64,000 nucleotides of DNA, taken from positions 2,009,501-2,073,500 of the forward strand of contig NZ_CP053557.1 of the NCBI RefSeq assembly GCF_014524545.1, in the 5' to 3' direction. Below the pieces are notes generated by a model, which was given only the letters and a program-made list of their open reading frames with translations, did no database searches and had not been told where the DNA came from. A program made the position numbers and the translations under genes. This document shows positions 31,803 to 58,712 of the stretch, one piece after another. This DNA is from Exiguobacterium sp. Helios. GTDB lineage: Bacteria > Bacillota > Bacilli > Exiguobacteriales > Exiguobacteriaceae. Positions within the stretch are counted from its first letter, which is position 1, and the number at the start of each line of letters is the position of its first letter.

Positions 31803-31872
31803 CTCGATCCCCCCTCGTGATGTACGCTGTGCCCCAAGACCACAGTACTTCACACAAATTTCTCACATGGTA

Positions 31873-32347: not shown

Positions 32348-32488
32348 GTCATTCCCCCCTTTCCTGTTCACTTACATTTCGTCACATTTAATGTATCATA
32401 TCCGCTTTTGGAACTGCTTCTTTAATGTGAACGTTTTATGAAATTAGCTACAATTTTTCTTCATATTTTCCCCTTAGTTTCGATTTCG

Positions 32489-54223: not shown

Positions 54224-54814
54224 TCAAGGTGTAAAGGTTGCGATTAGAGCTGGAACCGCTTGTTCCAACAGAATCGTTTTGCCGTATTCCGACATCACGA
54301 GCGGACTTTTCGGACTGGGTACTCCGTATTCCGACAGAATCGTTGTAATCGTCTGCTCAACATGTTGCTTCATTTGTTCTTGGAAGTATAAATAATAACG
54401 GTTTTCAAAGAAATACAGTGTGCCACCCGATTCCGTTTGATCGATGTGACGCCCCAGACTATGACTCGCTTGAATGACATCCTCCAACTGATCCAGTTGA
54501 TATAAGACATGATGCACGATATCGACCGTCATCCTGATTTCCACTTGATCAAATTCTTCAAACGTTTCTTCCGGCAAGGCGCCTTCCCGCCGAACATCGA
54601 CCAACATCCCGTCATTCGGAAAAAATGTGACAAAAAAGTCGAGTGTCCCGACGGCATGAAATCCGTAATTCGATTCTGCTTCTTCTAGTAAATTACGTAA
54701 TAATGCTTGTCCTTTTCCGACAGCCAACGTTTCTGGTCGAACGTCATGGGCAGACAGTTCTTGCTTTGACACGAAGACCCGTAAGTGACCTTGCTTAAAT
54801 TGCTCAAACCTCAT
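54224..54814 (-). CDS. ypbH: MecA-family adaptor protein (YpbH/MecB-like)
   Basis: A 196-residue Clp-protease adaptor-type protein. The N-terminal domain (FKQGHLRVFVSKQELSAHDV) binds substrate in MecA. The C-terminal domain (FFVTFF, DQLEDVIQASHSLG, GGTLYFFENRYYLYF) binds ClpC. MecA and its paralogue YpbH are hard to separate by eye; the position near recQ and ypbB favours YpbH. Substrates are unknown. Confidence 0.82.
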   Translation of the reverse strand: MRFEQFKQGHLRVFVSKQELSAHDVRPETLAVGKGQALLRNLLEEAESNYGFHAVGTLDFFVTFFPNDGMLVDVRREGALPEETFEEFDQVEIRMTVDIVHHVLYQLDQLEDVIQASHSLGRHIDQTESGGTLYFFENRYYLYFQEQMKQHVEQTITTILSEYGVPSPKSPLVMSEYGKTILLEQAVPALIATFTP

Positions 54815-54873: not shown

Positions 54874-55758
54874 CTATACACCAGTTGTCGGAGTGAGTCG
54901 ACTTAACCAACTTTTCCAAGCGGTGTCATCTGATCCAAGCAACATATCCCCATACTTTTCCGGATGTTGGTCAACGGCATAGCCACCCAAACCAATTTCC
55001 GTTTGCGGCGCATGCAGATGAATCTCGTCAATTGCTTCATCCAGGTCCTTTAAATGATCAGAAATCGTACAAGATAAAACAACTGCTCGAGGAGTCAGCT
55101 GTTTCGTTACCGCCACAAGATCGGGTACTGGAATACCCGCGCCAAGGAAAATGACATCGAATCCGCTCTGACGTAAATACAACGTAAAGAACAGCAATCC
55201 AAGTTCATGTTCTTCTTCCGGTGCACAAACGCACAGAATGCGTGGCAAAAATGGATTAATCGGCATTTGAAGGGATAACGTCGAGAGACGCGCCCGTAAG
55301 AACGCCGTCGCAAAATGTTCATGTGCAATCGTAATCGTTCCTTTTTCCCATCGCATCCCGATTTCATGTAACAACGGACCTACGATATCTTGAATGACCT
55401 TATCAAAGCTAAACATCGAAAAGGCTTTGTTCATGATGTCATGTGCGTGCCGTTCTTCGAAACTCGTCAGTGCTTCGAACAGTTGATCACGCAGTTCGAT
55501 CCCGTAATCGGTTGGAACCTCCGTTCGGTTCACCGGCATTTCATATAGTTGAATGGCTTTCGAAACCGATAGCCCTTCTTTTTGTTTATCGACAATCCAC
55601 CGCAGCTTGGCAACATCGTTATCGCTGTAAATACGATGTCCTGATTCGCTCCGATCTGGATCCAATACTTGATACCGCCGTTCCCAAGCACGAATGGTCG
55701 TCGGATTGAGTCCCACCAATGCAGCAACTGCTTTGATATTATATTTCCCACGATCCAT
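54874..55758 (-). CDS. carH: MerR-type regulator with cobalamin-binding domain (CarH/LitR-like photoreceptor)
   Basis: A 294-residue transcription factor with three parts. First is a MerR winged helix (1-75; IKAVAALVGLNPTTIRAWERR and ESGHRIYSDNDVAKLRWI). Second is a four-helix B12-cap domain (about 85-165) and third a Rossmann B12-binding domain (about 172-290). The cap holds Trp137-x9-Glu147-His148, the arrangement of CarH that surrounds the adenosyl group. The Rossmann domain holds E182-E-H184-E-L-G187, with His184 as expected lower axial cobalt ligand. In CarH, AdoCbl binding drives tetramer formation and repression in the dark, and light releases the DNA. No carotenoid or photolyase gene is adjacent, so targets lie elsewhere. 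GGAGG is 8 nt before the ATG. Confidence 0.88.
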   Translation of the reverse strand: MDRGKYNIKAVAALVGLNPTTIRAWERRYQVLDPDRSESGHRIYSDNDVAKLRWIVDKQKEGLSVSKAIQLYEMPVNRTEVPTDYGIELRDQLFEALTSFEERHAHDIMNKAFSMFSFDKVIQDIVGPLLHEIGMRWEKGTITIAHEHFATAFLRARLSTLSLQMPINPFLPRILCVCAPEEEHELGLLFFTLYLRQSGFDVIFLGAGIPVPDLVAVTKQLTPRAVVLSCTISDHLKDLDEAIDEIHLHAPQTEIGLGGYAVDQHPEKYGDMLLGSDDTAWKSWLSRLTPTTGV

Positions 55759-55829
55759 GCACCGTGCCTCCTTTCTTCTTCCCTTTAGTATACCCGTAAA
55801 GGAAAAAAATCTCCGTTCACAATGTGCGC

Positions 55830-56027
55830 TTACATCATGAAACCGATGGAGACAAAGGCAATGATAATGGTAATCATCAAAACGGTGAGGGTAATCGCAA
55901 GTGGATTTTTAGCAAATGGTTGTTTTAACCGTTCATTTCGAACGTGCTCGATTCTCGAGGAACGTGGAGGTAATGATGTTCGTTGTTGTTCATCTTGCCG
56001 ATTTTTTCGTTGATCGTGTTTACTCAA
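55830..56027 (-). CDS. Small single-pass membrane protein
   Basis: A 65-residue protein: a very basic N-terminal half (HDQRKNRQDEQQRTS, then RSSRIEHVRNERLK) and a C-terminal membrane segment (LAITLTVLMITIIIAFVSIG). The TTG at 56027 has AAAAGG 8 nt upstream; the GTG at 56036 lies on that site. It lies between recQ and carH, where B. subtilis has ypbD-ypbG; no clear homologue recognised, although the N-terminal half of a YpbE-like protein is possible. Confidence 0.65.
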   Translation of the reverse strand: MSKHDQRKNRQDEQQRTSLPPRSSRIEHVRNERLKQPFAKNPLAITLTVLMITIIIAFVSIGFMM

Positions 56028-56066
56028 TTTCATCACCTTTTCTAAAAAATAAGGAATACTATTAGT

Positions 56067-57500
56067 TTACACTGAAGGACGGGATGAAAAAAAGACTTCT
56101 TCTAGCCGACGTTTCCAGTCAAGTTGGTTCACATCGACCTGTATGACAGGTTCGTCCACCGTGAGTGTACCGCAATTGTCACAACACCGGTCTTGTACAA
56201 CTGGCTTCTCGCCAAAATGCTCCAAGATGAAGGCCCGGCGACAAAACGTATTTTGAATATAATTTATCATTTGCATAAGTTCACGTAAACGTATTTTTTT
56301 CCGGTCCTCTTGCCATTCAATAATTTGTGATTTTGTTTTCCCTTCCATAAGTTGACTTTTTAACAATCGATAGGCGGGATCATCCGGTTCGAGATTAAGG
56401 CGTTGTTCAATCGATTCAAAAGACTCCCCTTGTCCGCGGGATTGAGTCACTTGATCAACCCAAAGTAACGACGCATATTGTTTATCCACTAAGAATTGTT
56501 GAAGTTGTTGATCACCTGGTGCATAGAGTAATACAGCAGTCGAGGGCTGACCGTCCCGTCCCGCTCGTCCGATTTCCTGCATGTAGGCTTCAATCGTAGC
56601 CGGCATCGTATAATGAATGACGGTCCGGACATTTCCTTTGTCAACACCCATACCAAATGCACTGGTACAGACCAGACAGTCAATTTCGTCGTGAAGGAAC
56701 TGTTGTTGAATCAGTTGTCGATCTTCCGGTTCAAGACCGGCGTGGTAATAGGCCGCCTGAGGAACAAACGTCGCGATTCGCTCTGCTTCTTTCCGCGTCG
56801 TCGTATAAATGACGCATGGACGATTGGTAGTCTTCAATCGTCTTTTCAACACTGTATCTTTTTCGCTTTGTTCAGTTTGTTCGACAATGAGTTGAATTTC
56901 CGGTCGGTTGACGGAATGACGGATCCGGTTGGGTTGTATAAGTGCCAGCCCTTGAATGATGTCCTGTTCGACTTGATTCGTTGCCGTAGCCGTCAAAGCT
57001 AGGCAAGTCGGATTACCCAGCTGTTTTCGGATAGACCCCAGTTTTGCATATTCCGTTCTGAACTCGTGCCCCCACTGCGAGATACAGTGGGCTTCATCGA
57101 CGACAAACAGATTGATTTTGATGTCCGCTAACCGTTGTTGGATTTGCGGGACAGCCAACTGCTCAGGGGACAGATATAAATAACGTAACTGATTCAGGTG
57201 GCGTAAAATGTGCTCTTTTTGATCACGGGACTCAAGCGACGTCAACTTGGCGACGGATCGTTCCCCCCGGCGTTTGATTTGCATGACCTGGTCTTCGATC
57301 AGCGACAGCAAGGGGGATACAATCAACGTCAGTCCGGGCGTTTGCAGATAAGATGGCAATTGGTAACAAATCGATTTACCTCCGCCTGTCGGCAGGATAG
57401 CGACTGTATCATGACCGTCAAGGACCGATTCGACGATTGGACGTTGCCCGTCACGAAATGCATCATATCGAAAGATTCGCTTTAATACTTCTTCCATCAT
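56067..57500 (-). CDS. recQ: ATP-dependent DNA helicase RecQ
   Basis: A 477-residue RecQ helicase of the short type lacking an HRDC domain. Motif 0/I region is RDGQRPIVE then LPTGGGKSICYQLP; motif II is VVDEAHCISQWGHEFR; motif VI is QEIGRAGRDG. The zinc-binding region uses FCRRAFILEHFGE and DRCCDNCGTL. Its ATG overlaps the ypbB stop (ATGA), as in the B. subtilis ypbB-recQ pair. Confidence 0.95.
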   Translation of the reverse strand: MMEEVLKRIFRYDAFRDGQRPIVESVLDGHDTVAILPTGGGKSICYQLPSYLQTPGLTLIVSPLLSLIEDQVMQIKRRGERSVAKLTSLESRDQKEHILRHLNQLRYLYLSPEQLAVPQIQQRLADIKINLFVVDEAHCISQWGHEFRTEYAKLGSIRKQLGNPTCLALTATATNQVEQDIIQGLALIQPNRIRHSVNRPEIQLIVEQTEQSEKDTVLKRRLKTTNRPCVIYTTTRKEAERIATFVPQAAYYHAGLEPEDRQLIQQQFLHDEIDCLVCTSAFGMGVDKGNVRTVIHYTMPATIEAYMQEIGRAGRDGQPSTAVLLYAPGDQQLQQFLVDKQYASLLWVDQVTQSRGQGESFESIEQRLNLEPDDPAYRLLKSQLMEGKTKSQIIEWQEDRKKIRLRELMQMINYIQNTFCRRAFILEHFGEKPVVQDRCCDNCGTLTVDEPVIQVDVNQLDWKRRLEEVFFSSRPSV

Positions 57501-58510
57501 GGACGAGCCACCTTTCTTGCCAGGACGATACGGATTTGAAAATAGTCCATTTCCTGCGTCAATTCGTGTTTAATCCGTTTCAGTGAGAACGTCTGTAACC
57601 GTTCAGAGAGTCGGACAACCTCTTCATGTTGGGTAGCAGTCACAAATTGTTCGAGTGGAAAAACAGTAGCATACATTGCGATTTCGACGAGATGATCTTC
57701 CATCGTACTTTTTTTTAATCGTCGCCTCTCGGCAATTTGTTGAACGGTGTAACCTTGTTTCAGCAACTCCCAGGTCTTTTTCGCAGACTGCGTCATTTTA
57801 AAATGATCAATATCGTTTCCTAGAGACAGTATCAGGCCGTCTTCAGGTAATGCCCGTAAACATCTTCGCCAGGCCATCACAAATTCCAACTGTAGCGAAA
57901 GCAAGTCCGTTCCCAGCCGTTCACTCAATTGAGGAAACGATAATCCCGTTTTTTGCCCGGATAACCGGTAACTGATGAGAATTGCATCTCGTTCTGTCAA
58001 TTGATGTAACGCCTTATTCAGTTCTTGATACACAGTCGTTATCCAAACCGACCGTTCGGGTACCTGACGGATTTGTTGTCTGACCCACTCTTTTATCCCA
58101 CTGTCTTGTTGTACTGGAATAAAAAAAGTGTTTTGATTAAGACAGACAATCGATTGAATCAACAGACTGATCCGTTTCCACAAATGTATCGGATAACCGC
58201 GTAGCTCTCCACCTAAGTCATCCAGTAAAAAAGGCGGAGTGATTTGTGCTCTTCCGGCATCTGTAATCATCAAAGTTTGTTCCCGCTCGATCCAGCCGGC
58301 ATGTTCCAGCTCCTGTAACAGCTGCTCAAACCGGTCTTTTTTTAATGGCACCATTCCGAAAATAGCTTCCAGTCCGTAAAAATGTGCGTCTTGTAAGGAA
58401 GTCGCTGAACGTTTTCCTTGAATCAGATGAAATAAGCTTCGATCTGTCCGTTCATTTTGCAAACGACTGATGGCTTCTAGTACGATTTGTCGTACGATTG
58501 TTTTTTCCAT
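57497..58510 (-). CDS. ypbB: YpbB-like helix-turn-helix protein
   Basis: A 337-residue protein with a C-terminal helix-turn-helix of the RQC/HRDC-like type (ELLKQGYTVQQIAERRRLKKSTMEDHLVEIAMY). YpbB is encoded directly upstream of recQ in Bacilli and may substitute for the missing RecQ C-terminal domain; that is inference. The ATG at 58510 has AAGGAGG upstream; the extension to 58576 is rejected. Confidence 0.88.
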   Translation of the reverse strand: MEKTIVRQIVLEAISRLQNERTDRSLFHLIQGKRSATSLQDAHFYGLEAIFGMVPLKKDRFEQLLQELEHAGWIEREQTLMITDAGRAQITPPFLLDDLGGELRGYPIHLWKRISLLIQSIVCLNQNTFFIPVQQDSGIKEWVRQQIRQVPERSVWITTVYQELNKALHQLTERDAILISYRLSGQKTGLSFPQLSERLGTDLLSLQLEFVMAWRRCLRALPEDGLILSLGNDIDHFKMTQSAKKTWELLKQGYTVQQIAERRRLKKSTMEDHLVEIAMYATVFPLEQFVTATQHEEVVRLSERLQTFSLKRIKHELTQEMDYFQIRIVLARKVARP

Positions 58511-58712
58511 GTCAGTCCTCCTTTCCGTCCTGTTGCAAGTTGTTACTGGGATGCCTCGTTCATGTTCAGAATACATCCGACTCCCAATTCGTACATTTGT
58601 TCCTATTTTACATTTCCTATCTGATTTACGCTATGTTGAATCTACTAAAGAAACGGAAAAGGCGATTTCACCCCATCGATTGGTTTATTCACATACTTCT
58701 ACCTCTTCTTCA

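Follow-up and report, generated by a model that had tools for sequence, protein, structure and literature searches.

A likely CarH-type adenosylcobalamin photoreceptor of Exiguobacterium belongs to a Bacilli clade whose location away from pigment genes looks old

The window analysed here, a stretch of 64,000 nucleotides from the 3.15 Mb genome of the pigmented bacterium Exiguobacterium sp. Helios, contains a carH/litR-type gene within a series of genes arranged on a single strand in the order ypbB-recQ-small ORF-carH-mecB-ddl-gudB (Table 1). The MecA-family neighbour of carH matches PF05389, and its top NCBIfam model, PRK02899, scores under the cut-off of that model. A preliminary description of this DNA had placed carH between a MecA-type adaptor and recQ-ypbB, which is correct as far as it goes but leaves out the 67-codon ORF that lies between recQ and carH. 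Its remark that the gene sits outside any carotenoid cluster also holds, the carotenoid (crt) cluster of the same genome being located about 1 Mb from carH.

Table 1. Features of the carH region, with positions in the window.
Feature	Position	Strand	Remarks
mecB/ypbH-like gene, MecA-family adaptor	54224..54814	-	59 bp downstream of carH; co-transcription possible
carH/litR-type gene	54874..55758	-	294 aa; MerR domain ~6-71, four-helix B12 cap ~89-161, B12 Rossmann domain ~173-268
E182-x-H184-x-x-G187 motif	55198..55215	-	codons 182-187; His184 is the expected lower cobalt ligand
Cap motif W137-x9-E147-H148	55315..55350	-	codons 137-148; Glu138 at the position of Thermus CarH His132
Conserved stretch before carH, genus g1	55787..55830	-	GCACATTGTGAACGG at 55813-55827; TATACT -10-like box at 55787-55792; without tandem repeats
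Small ORF	55830..56033	-	67 codons, hydrophobic end; between recQ and carH; read from sequence
recQ-family helicase gene	56067..57500	-	conserved neighbour, upstream of carH; control by CarH unsupported
ypbB-like gene (HTH_40)	57497..58576	-	upstream of recQ

In a profile search, the 294-aa protein matched MerR_1 (5e-15), B12-binding_2 (7e-16) and B12-binding (2e-14), all above the Pfam cut-offs. These matches give it the domain composition of CarH and class I LitR proteins, namely a MerR domain with a C-terminal four-helix cap and a B12 Rossmann domain. The presence of both C-terminal domains rules out class II LitR, in which the four-helix domain is retained without the B12 Rossmann domain (PMC9758184; here and below, articles with PMC numbers are cited for the part of their text that was accessible). 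Two motifs, Wx9EH and ExHx2G...GG, are considered the defining marks of CarH proteins (PMC8156234, PMC9304148). The Exiguobacterium protein carries both in the form expected for CarH and class I LitR (Wx9EH; ExHx2Gx41SxV/Tx22-27GG), with residues 182-259 fitting the long B12 motif ExHx2Gx41SxTx22-27GG. The residues listed in the preliminary description, Trp137-x9-Glu147-His148 in the cap and E-x-H-x-x-G with His184, are indeed present, and its assignment of the gene to the CarH/LitR type is upheld by these motifs, the best solved relatives being Thermus CarH. By contrast, the score with the NCBIfam CarH equivalog model NF052513 is 170.9 bits where 400 are required, a limit that is a naming threshold and not a biological definition. 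Myxococcus xanthus CarA combines MerR and a B12 fold in the same way but is devoid of Wx9EH and needs no B12 (PMC8156234), whereas the Exiguobacterium protein possesses this motif and cannot be assigned to the CarA-type B12-independent class, for which the absence of Wx9EH is the criterion. A protein 100% identical to that of the window is encoded by Exiguobacterium sp. RIT594, and the orthologue of E. sibiricum 255-15 shows 97% identity.

The closest solved structures are those of Thermus thermophilus CarH (3whp/5c8d, E ~2e-37 over residues 3-256). The two proteins share the same domain order, Wx9EH and ExHx2G...GG (comparison with 3whp and 5c8d-f), but they are only ~34% identical, and the Exiguobacterium protein has Glu for His132, Glu for Arg176 and Gly for Asp201. 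The genomic setting also differs: Thermus carH adjoins phytoene synthase and photolyase genes, which Exiguobacterium carH does not. The first of these replacements, at the position directly following the cap Trp and absent from the preliminary description, concerns the residue that ligates cobalt after illumination in Thermus CarH (PMC10442372). The H132A variant of the Thermus protein was found to be still mostly tetrameric in the light, whereas an earlier report cited in the same article saw disassembly (PMC10442372). In our alignment, His occupies this position in none of the 73 rows from Bacilli (33 from Exiguobacteriaceae and 40 others) and is found in Thermus and in two Nitrospirota proteins. 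As Glu138 replaces the switch His, we did not assign the Exiguobacterium protein to a Thermus-type subtype with a bis-His photoproduct. Compared by its published description, CarH/LitR of Bacillus megaterium, likewise a member of the Bacilli, is reported to bind AdoCbl, to be released by light and to have operators made of four 11-bp repeats (PMC8156234, PMC9304148). Since this protein is said to pass from tetramer to dimer in the light (PMC8156234), the CarH proteins of Bacilli may switch by another route than Thermus His132.

All 38 genomes in our Exiguobacteriaceae set, which comprises two genera (g1 and g2, 19 genomes each) and of which 37 are within the completeness and contamination limits, encode a single carH orthologue. 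Although the proteins of g1 and g2 are only about 60% identical, Wx9EH is intact in the 38 genomes, as is ExHxxG-x41-[S/A]x[T/V]-x22-27-GG, with the strict Ser in 30 of them and Ala in 8. Eab7_1666 of E. antarcticum B7 is very probably an orthologue: it is a B12-binding/MerR protein encoded two tags from a RecQ gene and was modelled on 5c8a (PMC6016940). It was labelled as related to vitamin B12 synthesis, with CarH mentioned in passing, and the portion of that article available to us contains no motif, synteny or operator analysis of it (PMC6016940). In strain SH31, a carH was named in the same context as the crt genes, beside carA and carD, in a passage that also refers to the synthesis of arginine and UMP (PMC6158405). 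A search with carH as query retrieved no relative within the crt loci of 21 genomes, so the SH31 "carH" may be another gene. The literature that we searched, with subscription journals largely outside its coverage, yielded no experimental study of the protein described here.

Relatives of this protein at E <=1e-20 occur in 129 of 398 sampled Bacilli, the 38 Exiguobacteriaceae among them. Outside this family we read 40 places in 39 genomes, picked from a ranked list, and the 17 best, with 42-46% identity and distributed over 11 families, share a common recQ...mecB...ypdA locus. Their neighbours include recQ (16/17), ypbB (16), ypdA (16), fer (14), mecB (13) and gudB (12); the sole locus without recQ, ypbB and ypdA (L087) lies in a stretch bounded at one end by the contig start and cut off at the opposite end 6.8 kb upstream of carH. 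The long motif, in a loosened pattern, is found in the 17 orthologues and Wx9EH in 16 (L090 has HER). In a maximum-likelihood tree built from 52 proteins, among which nine represent Exiguobacteriaceae, with a long-branch warning for L117, L118 and T. thermophilus CarH, a branch supported at 97/97 unites the Exiguobacteriaceae, the 17 syntenic proteins, the motif-less L115 and L116 and the long-branched L117. Another branch (100/98) sets 14 other Bacilli proteins together, including the pigment-linked L109 and L111. These two are the only screened Bacilli loci where pigment genes flank carH, a third (L102) showing one weak crtN-like match, and all three fall outside the recQ-mecB clade. Because of this shared locus and the tree, the placement of carH far from pigment genes looks old and vertically inherited and not like an escape from a pigment cluster. 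What had been taken as an unusual position is therefore the normal one for the clade (17 syntenic Bacilli from 11 families). The phylogenetic check suggested in the preliminary description turned out in favour of its reading insofar as the Exiguobacterium protein groups with motif-intact Bacilli proteins (97/97), but the same group also holds motif-less and divergent members. In family f8, the orthologues L115 (G084) and L116 (G044), located between recQ and mecB-ddl, have lost the cap and ligand residues. Those of L208 (G098, also f8, with mecB next downstream) are likewise lost by reading. As L115 and L116 stand inside the clade, B12 sensing can be lost within it. Genome G128 carries, besides its syntenic copy, another CarH-like gene that is divergent (L110, G128:C46:4000-13447); the 9.4 kb that we read there are free of crt genes.

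Published CarH operators consist of tandem 11-bp repeats with TnnACA (PMC9304148). We scored such arrays upstream of carH and compared them with shuffles, the Thermus locus serving as positive control (12/12). Two perfect tandem 11-bp units precede carH in 9 of the 17 syntenic Bacilli (reached by 0-4% of shuffles); in 7 of these Bacilli, three units score 11/12 or 12/12 (0-1% of shuffles). In most of the 17 promoters, the units overlie a TTTACA-like -35 box accompanied by a TATAAT-like -10 box; one promoter of the clade carries TATACAAAGTTTACACA. In the other Bacilli clade too, several carH genes, L101 and L105 among them, are preceded by arrays. The pattern TATACAAANTTTACACA, derived from the clade promoters, was searched in the Exiguobacterium genome and in 16 of the 17 clade genomes. 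It has ten exact matches, in ten genomes, all of them before carH and with no second exact site. Of the three matches with one mismatch, one precedes L110, the second CarH-like gene of G128; at up to two mismatches there are 113 matches, versus 126 for the reversed pattern. The restriction of the exact site to carH supports autorepression as the conserved target, pointing to predicted carH autorepression in many syntenic Bacilli.

Exiguobacteriaceae themselves do not support tandem-repeat autorepression, since ten of their carH promoters remain at shuffle level bar one: three-unit scores are 7/12, as in shuffles, in five g1 promoters, and in g2 four reach 7 and one (L051) a weak 9/12. Their carH genes are preceded instead by conserved single elements, TTGCACAATAAAACAGG in g2 and GCACATTGTGAACGG in g1. 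The carH promoters of family f8 (L115, L116 and L208) show no clear array, the 10/12 of L208 being reached by 2.5% of shuffles. Elsewhere, no array stands out in the recQ-carH and carH-mecB gaps or ahead of ypbB, ddl and the adenosyltransferase gene. In the ypbB|fer intergenic region, the best score for CarH-type repeats is 7/12, a value equalled by all shuffles, so that no array is recognised there. The proposal that recQ itself might be controlled by light was set aside because of this result and of the gene order in the clade, recQ lying kilobases upstream in other Bacilli, where carH has its own promoter.

A crt-type synthase is encoded in 38/38 Exiguobacteriaceae genomes. The crt cluster comprises a methyltransferase gene, two crtN-like genes and crtM on one strand, and a third crtN-like gene together with glycosyltransferase, acyltransferase and Caroten_synth genes on the opposite one. 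A second squalene/phytoene-synthase-like gene (L077:10084-10908) is present in 19/19 g1 genomes and 0/19 g2 genomes. Promoter pieces of crtN, cruF and the methyltransferase gene from 21 crt loci contain no array above 9/12 or 12/16 (scores without shuffles), bearing in mind that, at some of these loci, a longer open frame may leave the promoter outside the cruF piece. One four-unit array matching 14/16 letters does exist in the cluster (L076:10773-10816), where the 119,803 scanned bases would be expected to yield 0.03, and 0.2% of shuffles of its intergenic piece reach this score. At >=13/16, two arrays were observed in the same 119,803 bases against 1.2 expected. The array at L076:10773-10816 scores 13-14 in 11/11 g1 loci and 12-13 in 10/10 g2 loci, and the -35 region of a candidate RNA gene overlaps with it (core of the array on the RNA strand: TGTGAACGTTATGTGAA). 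This candidate structured RNA of ~360 nt (L076:10389-10751, minus strand, crt cluster G000:C1:1012000-1031900) is located between the convergent crtM and crtP. Its 5' anchor is found in 21/21 crt loci, its fold z-score is -7.3 (against -4.8 on the opposite strand), 19 of the 42 consensus pairs are changed on both sides among 16 sequences, and several hairpins bear UCCCC loops. It has no match in Rfam at gathering score.

The crt array was at first attractive as a CarH operator but came to be doubted, as it can also be read as repeats of TGTGAA. The sequence TGTGAA-N5-TGTGAA, allowing one mismatch, occurs 260 times in ten Exiguobacteriaceae genomes versus 134 for the reversed pattern; within the window, at two mismatches, there is no such excess (7 versus 9.6 expected). 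Two of the window matches, at positions 31849-31865 (-) and 32426-32442 (+), lie near bc1-complex-like genes (named by eye), and comparable sites are found ~22-24 kb from carH in G005, G008, G023, G025 and G035. These repeats may be ResD boxes, and a ResD-like box fits the crt array at least as well. Given their genome-wide excess, the TGTGAA repeats resemble a box recognised by a broad regulator, so we did not count the crt array as a CarH site. These data bear on the suggestion that remote pigment or photorepair genes, or recQ, are under light-responsive control, which is compatible with a light-relieved CarH repressor but which we consider unlikely as it stands. Known CarH proteins control crt genes, the synthase is present in every genome of the family and the 14/16 array precedes the candidate RNA gene. 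On the other hand, no array was detected before ypbB-recQ or in those pieces of crt promoters that we scanned, the crt array doubles as TGTGAA repeats, whose count in ten genomes is about twice that of the reversed control, and the exact clade site marks only carH in other Bacilli.

In the 38 Exiguobacteriaceae, the CarH-type protein is the only PF02310 match above the cut-off, six genomes having a second match below it. Such a single PF02310 protein speaks against the presence of enzymes with a B12 domain, for example MetH or mutases. Each of the 38 genomes also encodes one PduO-type cobalamin adenosyltransferase; only that of G008 (G008:C1:2695760-2696173) was flagged for an in-frame TAA and a shortened match, and carH is intact in this genome. 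The enzyme is present in 318/398 Bacilli and in the 17 clade genomes, and the Bacillus subtilis control has it together with no PF02310 match, so that its presence alone is no proof that it serves CarH. In Exiguobacterium sp. Helios its gene adjoins resE-like and peptidase-like genes. Among the 12 clade genomes with a listed place, 6 have it within 20 kb of carH: G279, G295, G366 (f37), G088, G224 and G207 (f15). A paired loss of the B12 motifs and the adenosyltransferase was rejected, as G044, G084 and G098 (f8) retain the enzyme. We found no cobalamin riboswitch in the Exiguobacterium genome.

This inventory leaves room for a sensor of AdoCbl level, which would repress when the coenzyme is present and whose input would be B12 supply, light being incidental. 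The protein keeps the coenzyme-binding residues while missing the switch His, and in a genome with neither another PF02310 protein above the cut-off nor a cobalamin riboswitch, further B12-responsive control could be useful. We nevertheless judge this quite improbable: Wx9EH, which is tied to photoreceptor activity (PMC9304148), is kept in 38/38 genomes, little B12 metabolism is known that could be regulated in the absence of B12-domain (PF02310) enzymes, and Bacillus megaterium CarH is reported to be light-responsive (PMC8156234). A MerR repressor that depends on neither light nor B12 and whose B12 fold is a relic, in the manner of Myxococcus CarA, which binds B12 yet functions without it (PMC8156234), would agree with the loss of B12 residues at the same locus in L115 and L116 (and, by reading, L208) and with the lack of a second PF02310 protein and of a riboswitch, but it is very unlikely considering that every motif position is conserved across the 38 genomes of both genera, whereas CarA lacks Wx9EH (PMC8156234).

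The protein is probably an AdoCbl-bound, light-relieved repressor of the CarH/class I LitR kind, and represents Exiguobacterium in a Bacilli clade established at the ypbB-recQ...mecB...ypdA locus. As far as can be read from the sequences, the cofactor residues are retained, the genes descend in common at one locus, and a predicted CarH-type operator covers the promoter of carH itself in many other Bacilli. By analogy with known CarH proteins, the oligomeric holo-protein would sit on promoters in the dark and block transcription; in the light, breakage of the Co-C bond would loosen the oligomer and allow transcription to begin. The coenzyme would be supplied by the single PduO-type adenosyltransferase acting on a presumably imported corrinoid. 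We count several points against this light-relieved repressor: the Glu at the His132 position, the NF052513 score, the lack of a tandem operator in 10 Exiguobacteriaceae promoters, the lack of a cobalamin riboswitch, and an adenosyltransferase that is common, is kept where the motifs are lost and has an in-frame stop in G008. A bolder proposal is that the whole family keeps AdoCbl and the adenosyltransferase for light sensing alone, with B12 as a dedicated light pigment, in a CarH clade living away from pigment genes and without the Thermus switch His. It is possible but doubtful, its support being the only B12-domain protein above the cut-off and the adenosyltransferase, each in 38/38 genomes.

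Although proteins of this kind were already known, Exiguobacterium likely possesses a CarH-type AdoCbl photoreceptor belonging to an old clade located away from pigment genes. If the protein binds AdoCbl, Exiguobacterium would offer a clean system, in which no other B12-domain protein confuses the phenotype and light and B12 supply can be separated as inputs of CarH. More broadly, the recQ-mecB clade provides a natural test of how CarH can switch when the Thermus His132 is missing and of which targets it has when pigment genes are not adjacent, and family f8 provides a natural case of loss of B12 sensing in CarH orthologues.
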